Positions 26,857 through 32,907 of a stretch of 32,907 nucleotides of DNA are shown piece after piece. The notes under the pieces are model-generated. The model saw only the letters and a list, made by a program, of their open reading frames with translations. It did no database searches and was not told the origin of the DNA. Numbering within the stretch: position 1 is the stretch's first letter; each line of letters opens with the position of its first letter. The DNA is from Cellulophaga sp. F20128 (GTDB lineage Bacteria; Bacteroidota; Bacteroidia; Flavobacteriales; Flavobacteriaceae), in the NCBI RefSeq assembly GCF_023015805.1, contig NZ_JALKBA010000025.1, positions 1-32,907 of the forward strand. Direction: 5' to 3'. A program made the translations under genes and the position numbers.

Positions 26857-26910
26857 TCACTAAAAATATTTGTTAATTACTATTGATTTCACAAAAATCA
26901 TAGAAATTAT

Positions 26911-26940
26911 TTGATTAAAAAAACAAAAGTACTACATTTG
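26911..26940 (+). promoter_or_regulatory. Promoter of thrA-thrB (TTG-N19-TACATTTG)
   Basis: A -33 TTG (26911-26913) is followed by exactly 19 bases and TACATTTG (26933-26940), matching the Bacteroidota primary-sigma promoter at all fixed positions. The predicted start is near 26947, leaving about 170 bases of leader before the thrA ATG. Confidence 0.75.
26924..26931 (-). promoter_or_regulatory. Candidate -7 box for nnr
   Basis: On the minus strand TACTTTTG fits TAnnTTTG at every fixed base; there is no TTG at the proper distance. It lies back to back with, and inside, the thrA promoter's spacer, so the two could not be occupied together. Confidence 0.3.
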
Positions 26941-26972
26941 ATTCGTTAGTAAGCATTGCTTAAATATACATT

Positions 26973-27047
26973 TTGGACAAAAAATCAACTTTTTTCAATA
27001 CAATTACTTGTGTTCTTACAAACACAACAGCTACCCCCTTGGGGTGA
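26973..27047 (+). CDS. Putative threonine-rich leader peptide of the thrA operon
   Basis: A 24-codon open frame lies between the promoter and thrA, beginning MDKKSTFFNT and continuing ITCVLTNTTATPLG, then TGA. Seven of 24 residues are Thr (positions 6, 10, 12, 16, 18, 19, 21), with an Ile and a dense Thr run at 16-21. E. coli thrL, the leader of the corresponding enzyme, is likewise Thr/Ile-rich. The start would be TTG at 26973; ATA or ATT codons just upstream are the alternatives, and an in-frame TAA precedes at 26961. No ATG and no obvious Shine-Dalgarno sequence are present, though this phylum often lacks one. The Thr run overlaps a 7-bp hairpin. Translation is an inference from content and place, not shown. 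Confidence 0.55.
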   Translation: MDKKSTFFNTITCVLTNTTATPLG

Positions 27048-27101
27048 TCTTCTACATACATGTCCATATTGTTGTATTGATTTTCAATACCATTTATTAC
27101 C
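26995..27101 (+). promoter_or_regulatory. Inverted repeats in the thrA leader (candidate attenuator)
   Basis: Three local hairpins are visible: TTGTGTT/AACACAA (27008-27014 with 27021-27027), ACCCC/GGGGT (27033-27037 with 27041-27045) and GTATTG/CAATAC (27074-27079 with 27085-27090). A fourth, long-range pairing joins TCAATACAA (26995-27003) to TTGTATTGA (27072-27080), 9 bp, and competes with the third hairpin for the same bases. GGTGAT (27043-27048) can also pair with ATTACC (27096-27101). I see no T-run after a hairpin, so a transcription terminator is not evident, and control at translation start is equally possible. Folding was not computed. Confidence 0.45.
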
Positions 27102-27117
27102 TAATAATTTATTCTCA

Positions 27118-29562
27118 ATGAAAGTATTAAAGTTCGGCGGAACTTCGGTTGCCAATGCCAAAAATATAAGATTAGTTAAAAATATTGTAGCCCATTCAAA
27201 CACCAAAACAGTGGTTGTTGTATCAGCCTTTGGGGGTGTTACAGATTTGTTATTAGAAGCAGCAAGTTTAGCGTCTACCCAACAAGAAACATACAAAGAA
27301 GTTGTAAAAAAAATAGAGCACAGGCATATTGAAACTATTAAAGATTTAATTCCAATAACCAATCAAAGTAAAATTTTAAGTAAGGTTAAAAGTGAATTAA
27401 ATGTTTTGGAAACCCTTCTAGAAGGCGCTTTTTTCATAGGTGAAATAACACCGAAACTATCCGATAAAATTGTTAGTTATGGCGAACTTTTATCTTCCTA
27501 TATCATTAGCGAATTTTTTATTTCCGAAAAATTAGACGCCCACTACAAGGATAGTAGGGAACTTTTAATTACGAATACTACCTATGGTAAGGCAAGTATT
27601 CTAAATTTTGAAGATACAAATACCTTAATCCACCACTATTTCACCACAAACCCAAATTTGATCACTGTATTAGGAGGGTTTATAGCTGCTTCCAGTACGG
27701 GCGACTCTACGACTTTAGGACGTGGCGGCTCAGATTATACCGCTGCCATTATCGCAGCTGCCGTAAACGCAGAAGGTTTAGAAATATGGACAGATGTTAG
27801 CGGTATGTATACGGCCAACCCTAAGATTGTAAAACAAGCCCAAGCTATTCCAAACATATCTTATGAAGAAGCTATGGAGCTTTCACATTTTGGAGCTAAA
27901 GTATTATACCCTCCAACAATACAACCTGTGCTGGCCAAAGGAATACCAATTCAAATTAAAAACACCTTTGACCCAGAATCCGTGGGTACTTTAATTACCA
28001 AGAGCATAGAAAAAAATGGCAAAACTGTACGCGGTATAAGTCATATCGAAAACGTTAGTTTACTTTCATTGGAAGGACCAGGTATGGTTGGTATTCCAGG
28101 AATATCAAAACGTTTTTTCGAAGTCCTTTCCCTGGCTCAAATTAGCATTGTGTTGATCACTCAGGCATCGTCAGAACATTCTATTTGTATTGGTATAGCA
28201 GACCTAGATTCTACAGCTGCACAAGAAGCTATCAACAATGAGTTTCAGTATGAAATTTCTTTAGGAAGAATTAAGCCAATATTAGTAGAGAACAATCTTG
28301 CCATTATTGCCTTGGTTGGCGATCATATGAAAAACCACCAAGGATTAAGTGGTAAAATGTTTAGTAACCTAGGTAAAAACAATGTAAACATACGGGTTAT
28401 TGCTCAAGGGTCTTCTGAGCGAAATATTTCGGCTGTCATCGCTAATAGCGATGTAAAAAAGGCATTAAACTCTTTACATGAAGCTTTTTTTGAAGAGAAC
28501 ATTAAACAATTAAACCTGTTTATAATGGGGGTTGGTAATGTAGGATCCCGACTTTTACATCAAATTAAGCAACAAAAGAAATACCTGAAAGAAAATTTAA
28601 AACTTAACCTAAGGGTTATTGGGATATCAAATTCCAGAACTATGTTTTTTGATGAAGAAGGAATTTCGTTAAAACATTGGGAAGAAGCATTGGCAAAGGG
28701 AGAAAAAGCAGATACAGAAGCCTTTTTCAAGGCTATAAAAAAGCTGAACTACAGAAATAGTATTTTTATAGACAATACCGCTAGTGATGTCATTTCTAAA
28801 ACCTACACCAAGTATCTTAGCAATAGTATTTCTGTTGTCACTTGCAATAAAATTGCCTGTTCATCTGAATACGAAAACTATAAAAATCTAAAGTATCTAG
28901 CACAAAAATACAACGCGCCATTTTTATTTGAAACGAACGTTGGTGCTGGGTTGCCAATTATTGATACTTTAAAGCACTTAATTGCTTCTGGGGATAAAAT
29001 TTTAAAAATACAAGCTGTGCTGTCTGGGAGTTTAAATTTTGTATTTAATAATTTCAACAATACTACAACTTTTAATAATATTGTAAAACAGGCACAAGAA
29101 GAAGGCTACACAGAACCAGATCCTAAAATAGATTTAAGTGGAATTGATGTGGCTCGAAAAATATTAATTTTAGCTAGAGAAAGTGGTTATCAAATTGATA
29201 TTAATGAAATTGAAAACAAATCATTTTTACCCGAGGAAAGTCTAAACACAAACAATAACGAAGATTTTTTCGCTTCTCTTATTAAGTATGAGGCCGATTT
29301 TCAAGAAATGTATGCAGAAGCCCATCAAAAAGATTGCAAGCTAAAATATGTGGCTCAGTTTGAAAATGGAAAAGCAAGTGTAGGTCTACAACATATCCCC
29401 AAAGGACACGATTTTTATAATTTAGAAGGAAGTGATAACATTGTCTTGTTTTTTACGGAACGGTATCCCAATCAGCCAATGATTATAAAAGGAGCAGGTG
29501 CAGGTGCAGATGTAACAGCTTCTGGCATATTTGCAGATATTATAAGAATTGGAAATTTTTAA
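27118..29562 (+). CDS. thrA: Bifunctional aspartokinase / homoserine dehydrogenase
   Basis: I start at the ATG at 27118 because it begins the conserved MKVLKFGGTSVANA; the frame is open further upstream only through the leader. The 814 residues match ThrA length. The aspartokinase half (1 to about 290) has KFGGTSV, VVVVSAFGG and GRGGSDYTAAIIAAA with EIWTDVSGMYTANP, followed by two ACT-like regulatory domains (about 310-460, LEGPGMVGIPGISKRFFEVL and ALVGDHMKNHQGLSGKMF). The homoserine dehydrogenase half has the NAD(P) loop IMGVGNVGSR (about 469-478), CNKIA, ETNVGAGLPIIDTLKHL, LSGSLNFVFN and DLSGIDVARKILIL. It makes aspartyl phosphate and reduces aspartate semialdehyde to homoserine, feeding threonine and methionine. 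The ACT domains suggest threonine feedback. thrB follows after 4 bases. Confidence 0.95.
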   Translation: MKVLKFGGTSVANAKNIRLVKNIVAHSNTKTVVVVSAFGGVTDLLLEAASLASTQQETYKEVVKKIEHRHIETIKDLIPITNQSKILSKVKSELNVLETLLEGAFFIGEITPKLSDKIVSYGELLSSYIISEFFISEKLDAHYKDSRELLITNTTYGKASILNFEDTNTLIHHYFTTNPNLITVLGGFIAASSTGDSTTLGRGGSDYTAAIIAAAVNAEGLEIWTDVSGMYTANPKIVKQAQAIPNISYEEAMELSHFGAKVLYPPTIQPVLAKGIPIQIKNTFDPESVGTLITKSIEKNGKTVRGISHIENVSLLSLEGPGMVGIPGISKRFFEVLSLAQISIVLITQASSEHSICIGIADLDSTAAQEAINNEFQYEISLGRIKPILVENNLAIIALVGDHMKNHQGLSGKMFSNLGKNNVNIRVIAQGSSERNISAVIANSDVKKALNSLHEAFFEENIKQLNLFIMGVGNVGSRLLHQIKQQKKYLKENLKLNLRVIGISNSRTMFFDEEGISLKHWEEALAKGEKADTEAFFKAIKKLNYRNSIFIDNTASDVISKTYTKYLSNSISVVTCNKIACSSEYENYKNLKYLAQKYNAPFLFETNVGAGLPIIDTLKHLIASGDKILKIQAVLSGSLNFVFNNFNNTTTFNNIVKQAQEEGYTEPDPKIDLSGIDVARKILILARESGYQIDINEIENKSFLPEESLNTNNNEDFFASLIKYEADFQEMYAEAHQKDCKLKYVAQFENGKASVGLQHIPKGHDFYNLEGSDNIVLFFTERYPNQPMIIKGAGAGADVTASGIFADIIRIGNF

Positions 29563-29566
29563 TATT

Positions 29567-30496
29567 ATGGATAAGGAAATACGTGTGTTTTGCCCAGCTA
29601 CAATTGCTAATATCTCATGTGGATTTGATGTCCTTGGCGTAGCCTTAGATAATGTTGGGGATGAAATGGTGGTTCGTAAAACACGAAAAAAAGGAATTAC
29701 TATAACCAAACTAGAAGGGCAAGATTTACCCTTAGAAACTCATAAAAATGTTGCTGGCGTTGCAGGCTTAGCATTATTATCTGCCTCAGACTACGATGGG
29801 GGTTTTGAAATTGAAATCTATAAAAAAATAAAAGCTGGAAGTGGTATAGGAAGTAGTGCTGCAAGTTCAGCAGGAGCCGTTTGGGCAATGAATAAATTAT
29901 TAGGAGAACCTTTCTCTAATTTAGATTTGGTGAAATTTGCAATGAAGGGAGAGGAACTGGCCAGTGGAGTACCACATGCAGACAATGTAGCTCCTGCTAT
30001 TTACGGTGGCTTTACTTTGGTACGCAGTTACGACCCCTTAGATATCATAAAAATTAACACCCCAAGCGAATTATACGCTACGGTTATACACCCCCAAATA
30101 GAAGTAAAAACATCCGATTCTAGAAAAATACTAAAAACAACAATTTCTTTAGCAGATGGTATTAAACAGTGGGGTAATGTTGGCGGTTTAATCGCCGGAC
30201 TGTATACGGAGGATTACAATTTAATTGGTAGATCATTAACAGACCATATTGTAGAACCAATACGCTCTATTCTTATTCCCGCCTTTGACACTGTTAAATC
30301 TGCCTCCATACAGGCAGGTGCTCTTGGCTGTGGAATATCGGGTTCTGGACCCTCCATATTTGCGTTGTGTAAAGGAAAATCCAGTGCAATTAAGGTGGCA
30401 GAAGCGATGCAAAAAGTATACACCAAAGTGGGAATCACCTATGATATCCATGTCTCAAGTATAAATTTAGAAGGAGTGAAAAAAATGAACCCCTAA
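29567..30496 (+). CDS. thrB: Homoserine kinase
   Basis: A 309-residue GHMP kinase, started at the ATG at 29567, which begins the conserved MDKEIRVFCPATIANISCGF and lies 4 bases after thrA; the six extra residues of the longer frame overlap thrA. The ATP loop is KAGSGIGSSAASSAGAVWAM (about 83-102), the second motif is ELASGVPHADNVAPAIYGG, and the C-terminal LGCGISGSGPSIFAL closes the site. It phosphorylates homoserine for threonine synthase. thrC does not follow, although thrA-thrB-thrC is the common order in Bacteroidota. Confidence 0.95.
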   Translation: MDKEIRVFCPATIANISCGFDVLGVALDNVGDEMVVRKTRKKGITITKLEGQDLPLETHKNVAGVAGLALLSASDYDGGFEIEIYKKIKAGSGIGSSAASSAGAVWAMNKLLGEPFSNLDLVKFAMKGEELASGVPHADNVAPAIYGGFTLVRSYDPLDIIKINTPSELYATVIHPQIEVKTSDSRKILKTTISLADGIKQWGNVGGLIAGLYTEDYNLIGRSLTDHIVEPIRSILIPAFDTVKSASIQAGALGCGISGSGPSIFALCKGKSSAIKVAEAMQKVYTKVGITYDIHVSSINLEGVKKMNP

Positions 30497-32811: not shown

Positions 32812-32819
32812 AAAAAAAA

Positions 32820-32907
32820 GGCAGCGGCCTACTCTCCCACAAAAATGCAGTACCATCGGCGCAGATGGGCTTAACTTCCCTGTTCGGAATGGAAAGGGGT
32901 GAGCCCC
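32820..32907 (-). rRNA. rrf: 5S ribosomal RNA, 3' part
   Basis: Read on the minus strand, the segment carries the conserved 5S core CCATTCCGAACAGGGAAGTT, then GCCCATCTGCGCCGATGGTA and GTGGGAGAGTAGG, ending GCCGCTGCC. About 88 of the expected 110 or so bases are inside the window; the 5' end lies to the right. It implies that a 16S-23S-5S operon on the minus strand ends here. Confidence 0.95.

Follow-up and report, generated by a model that had tools for sequence, protein, structure and literature searches.

The thrA-thrB operon of Cellulophaga sp. F20128 is preceded by a 170-nt leader with a short threonine-rich frame that comparison with relatives supports well as a leader peptide, and the leader is best explained, with a probability of about 0.74, as a ribosome-mediated attenuator of thrAB that probably works via transcription read-through and has no recognisable terminator. 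The most conserved part of the leader is a small hairpin, HP1, with the consensus ACCC[CT]-loop-[AG]GGGT, which has the stop codon of the frame within or next to it and was left unnamed in an earlier note on this DNA. The stretch that was analysed, referred to as the window, is 32,907 nucleotides long.

Organization of the locus

The ThrA protein is a member of the AK-HSD I family by its NCBIfam profile. The gene upstream of the leader lies on the opposite strand and encodes NAD(P)H-hydrate epimerase and dehydratase domains, and the promoter, the TTG frame, HP0, HP1, the ACATAC block, TGTCCA and HP2 are all located between this gene and thrA (Table 1). A 5S rRNA gene occupies the contig end on the minus strand (window 32816-32907).

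Table 1. Features of the leader and of the operon, in window coordinates
Feature	Position	Strand	Remarks
Bacteroidota-type promoter	26910..26940	+	TTTG 26910-26913, 19-nt spacer, TACATTTG 26933-26940
Thr-rich leader peptide frame	26973..27047	+	TTG start, TGA stop 27045-27047; ORF reading; homologous frame open in relatives
P1 5' strand, TGGACA	26974..26979	+	overlaps start codon and Asp codon; can pair with TGTCCA 27061-27066
HP0, 7-bp hairpin	27008..27027	+	TTGTGTT (27008-27014)/AACACAA (27021-27027); inside the frame; letters checked
HP1, ACCCC-CTT-GGGGT hairpin	27033..27045	+	at frame end; last base is first base of TGA stop; core conserved feature
ACATAT-like block, ACATAC in the window	27054..27059	+	conserved; starts at the 9th base after HP1
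P1 3' strand, TGTCCA	27061..27066	+	partner of TGGACA 26974-26979
HP2, GTATTGA-TTT-TCAATAC hairpin	27074..27090	+	no T-run behind
thrA, bifunctional aspartate kinase/homoserine dehydrogenase I	27118..29562	+	ATG 27118, 814 aa; NF006959 1048.8 bits, cut-off 726
thrB, homoserine kinase	29567..30496	+	NF002288 and TIGR00191 above cut-off; ATG 29567, TAA 30494-30496

The earlier note had described a complete promoter in front of the leader, and its letters are correct. The pattern TTG-N18-20-TANNTTTG, which we take to be the promoter consensus of the phylum Bacteroidota, is present in all 17 leaders of the genus and in 55 of 120 leaders overall, as compared with 0.8% of shuffled sequences.

Sampling and distribution of the leader

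Related loci were gathered by a DNA search with positions 26880-27240, with matches in 33 of 60 genomes (the source genome among them, and many over the thrA coding part only), and by a thrA protein search, which matched 77 of 148 genomes of the order; further stretches were added by place. From named species, the top 80 out of 593 candidates were taken, and the named genera sampled include Maribacter, Arenibacter, Flagellimonas, Kordia, Flavobacterium, Tenacibaculum, Polaribacter, Formosa and Gelidibacter. After loci without a thrA-type start or with fewer than 150 bases upstream had been dropped and duplicates removed, 153 distinct Flavobacteriales upstream regions were retained, a few of which belong to other aspartate kinases and not to thrA. 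Of the 153, 120 have both the HP1 pattern and a short frame, a count that a second pattern finder also gives. Among the 33 regions that do not have it, 11 are from genomes of about 0.6 Mb (family f16) and three are of a terminator type (L064-066), while some of the others are not thrA and several are thrA regions with no visible leader; L069 and L136, also in this group, have a degenerate HP1 as judged by eye. A larger set of 146 HP1 leaders, from which five duplicates were subtracted, gave the 141 distinct leaders used for measurements on HP1 itself.

A covariance model, R1, was built from HP1 and its flanks. Within the own genome the model has one match below an E-value of 1, with the other matches at 1.6 to 8.3, and across the phylum it finds matches in 48 of 395 genomes, of which 30 are from the window's family, three from f5, four from f18 (same class) and 11 from f38, which belongs to another class. 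All 15 matches outside the order, 11 of them in that other class, lie upstream of thrA, and among the loci fetched within the order the thrA start is at most 200 nt after HP1 in 24 of 25, with L224 not confirmed. In f38, a TTTAAGTC-TTAA-like block seen by eye recurs shortly before thrA in L228 and L236-L240. The own genome also encodes a second AK-HSD of 1127 aa (L266, G000:C37:72346-74745 plus flanks), in which the N-terminus resembles a MetX (homoserine O-acetyltransferase) domain at a score under the curated cut-off; the next gene, incomplete because the locus ends within it, resembles a homoserine sulfhydrylase. L266 is absent among the matches of the thr-leader model, in keeping with threonine-specific control. 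Searches of Rfam gave no match at the leader to the Thr_leader family RF00506 or any other family (26880-27130, E up to 10), and no riboswitch or T-box match in the window or, at gathering scores, in the loci of 18 relatives and L266.

The threonine-rich leader peptide frame

The frame encodes the 24-residue peptide MDKKSTFFNTITCVLTNTTATPLG, and its 24 codons, TTG start and seven threonine codons are as the earlier note described them. The TTG start, which that note had called a weak point and which is unusual, aligns with ATG-GAC in other members of the genus, and TTG itself is kept in L002-L007. In the frame set by the ACC codon of HP1, the 20 codons before HP1 are free of stops in all 120 leaders and contain 758 threonine codons among 2400 (31.6%), a count over leaders that share kinship and are not 120 independent cases. 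The other two frames of the same leaders have 86 and 33 ACN codons per 2400 and are interrupted by stops in 86 and 50 of the 120 leaders, respectively. Isoleucine is also abundant in the HP1 frame, with 339 of 2400 codons (14.1%) vs 90 and 95 in the other frames; the long ORFs of a genus relative, taken as a control, contain 6.3% threonine and 7.5% isoleucine. Threonine is densest at the five codons adjoining HP1, each of which encodes it in 69-89 of the 120 leaders.

Coding constraint and codon conservation are likewise apparent among relatives, as expected for leader attenuation. In pairwise counts among L002-L007, 36 of 62 single-base codon differences are synonymous, vs 25% expected, and the in-frame gaps of the genus alignment are of three or six bases, with the lone single-base gap falling just before the start codon. 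An open 24-codon stretch with at least seven threonine codons occurs upstream of only 1 of 101 control genes from a genus relative, so the frame is more than a product of chance. The search of thrA upstream regions in relatives that the earlier note had suggested as a check has thus found the threonine-rich frame open in the 120 Flavobacteriales regions described above, and the proposal of a threonine leader peptide before thrA-thrB in Flavobacteriaceae is supported by this comparison. A short threonine-rich frame of this kind, placed upstream of a threonine biosynthesis operon, is a further hallmark of leader attenuation.

HP1 and the ACATAT-like block

The HP1 stem is 5-6 bp long in 123 of the 141 distinct leaders and reaches a maximum of 9 bp, the loop is mostly 3 nt, and the stop codon lies inside the hairpin or at most 3 nt away in 137. 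In 111 of the 141 leaders (79% vs 14% of shuffles) HP1 is followed by a block of the form [AT][CT]ATA whose first letter is at base 7-12 behind the hairpin, and 19 leaders have no such block within 26 nt of HP1. The distance from HP1 to the thrA start ranges from 56 to 188 nt across leaders. In a control search the HP1 pattern had 4 occurrences in 600,000 bases of strand, and the strict pattern of HP1, spacer and AYATA occurs exactly once per genome in five whole genomes, each time at the thrA place; a slightly looser HP1 pattern is found in 71 of 395 genomes, and many of the occurrences outside the window's family look like chance. In family f25, L257 and L258 have a ACCCTTAGGGGT hairpin upstream of thrA and no ACATAT-like block.

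Two further proposals for HP1 were considered and set aside. Use of the element as a general device for other amino acids was rejected, as only thrA was found in the five pattern-searched genomes, and pairing of the 3' arm of HP1, GGGGT, with a conserved downstream partner showed no excess over shuffles (mean z +0.12).

Other pairings in the leader

RNA structure overlaps the frame at two places, with HP0 inside it and HP1 at its stop codon, an arrangement expected of leader attenuation, and we infer that the position of the ribosome would matter for both structures. HP0 is the 7-bp hairpin, TTGTGTT/AACACAA, that the earlier note had reported as overlapping the frame. A stem of the HP0 type, with 6-8 bp, a loop of 4-7 nt and an end 5-13 nt ahead of HP1, is the longest in 14 of 17 genus sequences, while the stem letters differ among them; this support comes from a listing of stems per sequence, as a separate, ungapped genus alignment of the HP0-HP1 region misplaces HP0 between subclades, and for the window itself the listing gives an overlapping 7-bp stem instead of HP0.

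The earlier note had also proposed a switch between competing pairings, in which TTGTATTG at 27072-27079 pairs with CAATACAA at 26996-27003 or, in part, with CAATAC at 27085-27090. The letters and coordinates of these segments are correct, and the pairing of 27072-27079 with 26996-27003 extends over 10 bp in the window (p 0.01). It does not, however, recur in relatives, where the same places in the 16 other genus sequences give 3-6 bp with a lowest p of 0.28. Because of this absence the proposed switch is not a general mechanism, and this mutually exclusive pairing, present in 1 of 17 genus sequences, is not a conserved one.

Evidence for the remaining pairings is milder. The P1 stem is a lead only: it has a mean length of 5.1 bp vs 4.2 bp in shuffles among 37 sequences with the GTCC motif, a mild excess, and the GGAC:GTCC stem is found mostly in the group of Maribacter and the window. 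Pairing of the downstream block with the leader frame as a general feature was tried and rejected (mean z +0.10 over 120 leaders, 2 of them below -2). Many lineages have a predicted hairpin near the HP2 position, with varying stem letters (mean z -1.09 over 120 leaders), and 24 of the 120 are below z -2, while the window itself reaches only -0.6 and none is predicted in several short leaders. The fold of the whole leader is only mildly stable at -33.6 kcal/mol (z -2.1, with 5 of 200 shuffles as good). In L025, L028, L111 and comparable loci of Flavobacterium, the stretch from HP2 to thrA is longer by about 80 bases than in close relatives such as L026, and the leader unit itself is unchanged.

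Terminators in the window and in other families

The earlier note had pointed out that the window has no T-run, and none is found before the thrA ATG; a terminator hairpin followed by a T-run is accordingly missing between the leader peptide and thrA in the window, and a conserved terminator/antiterminator pair was not found in HP1-type leaders. A loose terminator test is passed by 17 of 146 window-type leaders (15 of 141 distinct), with energies of -5.2 to -9.5 kcal/mol, and the window leader fails it. Two candidate terminators were rejected: HP2 usually has no T-run, and several species with short leaders have no predicted HP2, and a stem before a T-run is suggestive in two groups and not general.

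Six thr leaders of other families, in contrast to the window type, have T-tailed terminators of -16 to -22 kcal/mol (L064-066 in f5/g69; L253, L256 and L260 in f17). These look like textbook Thr/Ile attenuators, and by eye the leader repeats the 3' arm of the terminator, as an antiterminator would, clearly in L065, L066 and L256 and partly in L260. L250 and L251 (f22) are further threonine-rich leaders, of which one has no terminator and one a weak one.

Proposed mechanism and alternative explanations

The leader peptide, rich in threonine, or threonine and isoleucine, would report to the thrA-thrB operon how much threonine tRNA is charged. Threonine codons are most frequent directly ahead of HP1, so that a shortage of threonyl-tRNA would halt the ribosome there; when threonine is scarce the ribosome would thus stall in the run that ends at the hairpin, and when it is plentiful the ribosome would go on as far as the stop codon within or next to HP1. 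Where the ribosome stands may then determine whether HP1 and the ACATAT-like block can act, and with this whether RNA polymerase reads into thrA. Pausing is proposed because the conserved block stands at a steady distance after HP1, similar to the hairpin-stabilised pause of E. coli hisL, which lies 10 nt beyond a 5-bp stem with an 8-nt loop (PMC9291695). HP1 resembles it with a stem mostly of 5-6 bp and a block at base 7-12 after the stem, and differs from it in its mostly 3-nt loop; the pause here is predicted from this likeness. Ribosome-sensitive pausing would form the core of the mechanism, with read-through or termination of transcription as its most likely outcome, so that stalling at the threonine run, a pause at HP1 and the block, and a transcriptional output together make up the model that we infer. 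The variable distance from HP1 to thrA, together with the terminators of some families, favours control of transcription over occlusion of the thrA start. Several observations count against the favoured explanation: the TTG start is unusual, HP2 varies and is missing from the predictions for some species, no conserved partner elsewhere was found for the 3' arm of HP1, few window-type leaders pass the loose terminator test and these only weakly, and 33 of the 153 upstream regions do not have the HP1 pattern.

With no terminator, transcription would most simply be ended by Rho, or else by HP1 itself together with helper factors. In a Rho-dependent attenuator, Rho would load on the C-rich, G-poor RNA of the threonine run and the region after HP1 once the ribosome has left, and terminate at the HP1/ACATAT pause, while a stalled ribosome would cover the loading site. 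The missing canonical terminator in most window-type leaders fits this, as does a composition of 16.8% C vs 8.4% G in up to 90 nt after HP1 (13.0 and 12.8% in control upstream regions), and it would also work where HP2 is not predicted; an equally strong skew is, however, present in 12.9% of 101 control genes, and G-poor start regions may serve translation, which leaves this account rather unlikely. Control of translation, in which a stalled ribosome would alter structures over the thrA start at an unchanged transcript level, is unlikely: the window has no T-run and some leaders have only 56 nt between HP1 and the start codon, but this distance extends to 188 nt, HP2 is more than 100 nt from the start in part of Flavobacterium, and some other families use terminators.

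Classical attenuation through pairing between the 3' arm of HP1 and a segment just before a T-run is distinctly improbable, although stems of 6-9 bp occur at a steady place in many Flavobacterium and Chryseobacterium-like sequences (GGGTATA:TATACTT and GGGGTACAT:ATGTACTCT, respectively) and L020 and L229 (G053) and L054 (G161) pass the terminator test with a stem of the GGGGTACAT:ATGTACTCT type. A p of 0.05 is reached in no more than 5 of the 84 sequences, the mean p is 0.39, and the window has neither a comparable stem nor a T-run of this kind. It is very improbable that the threonine-rich frame is a chance occurrence or a small protein with a function of its own, with the conserved sequence regulating in another manner, e.g., as a metabolite-binding RNA. 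HP1 and the ACATAT-like block are indeed more conserved in sequence than attenuator arms usually are, but the threonine content in the right frame across the 120 leaders, the location of the unit before thrA in 39 of 40 inspected model matches, and the lack of an Rfam riboswitch match all argue against this reading.

Relation to known leaders and significance

To our knowledge, little is known about the control of amino-acid synthesis in Bacteroidota. Vitreschak and others reportedly listed attenuators in Bacteroidetes/Chlorobi in 2004. The classical attenuator for threonine synthesis is E. coli thrL, a leader peptide rich in threonine and isoleucine before the genes for AK-HSD I and homoserine kinase. 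The Cellulophaga leader resembles it in its Thr/Ile-rich peptide and in the two genes that follow, and is unlike thrL (RF00506) in having neither an Rfam match at the leader nor a canonical terminator; HP1 with its stop codon and the ACATAT-like block are not known to be part of thrL. The leaders of f17 and f5/g69 share with the window the frame rich in threonine, or threonine and isoleucine, upstream of thrA and differ in their strong T-tailed terminators and in not having the HP1/ACATAT unit in the window's form. The Bacteroid-trp RNA, a Trp leader, belongs to a different operon, and no Rfam match was obtained in the scanned thr leaders. It was reported as RF01692, a Bacteroidetes motif marked as likely cis-regulatory (PMC2864571), and the Thr leader RF00506 has been listed with 45 sites (PMC3766115). 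In Flavobacterium psychrophilum, of the same family as the window, strong clues for leader peptide attenuation were described upstream of amino-acid biosynthesis operons (PMC9723704), in a report whose main text makes no mention of thrA or threonine. No description of a Bacteroidota thr leader was found by title or abstract start in the open-access literature.

A broader interpretation, offered tentatively as possible and not as probable, is an attenuator without a switchable terminator pair, in which the stop-codon hairpin and an ACATAT-like block that follows at a distance of roughly one RNA-exit-channel length would act as a ribosome-sensitive pause or an atypical (Rho- or NusG-aided) terminator for threonine synthesis in at least two Bacteroidota classes, and the canonical terminators of some families would be replacements. 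The comparative data describe a compact leader before thrA that no Rfam family matches and that occurs in two classes of Bacteroidota. They also contain a built-in comparison, as the thr leaders of some families have a plain terminator and most window-type leaders have no recognisable one, and this comparison makes it testable what stops expression when the intrinsic terminator is missing.
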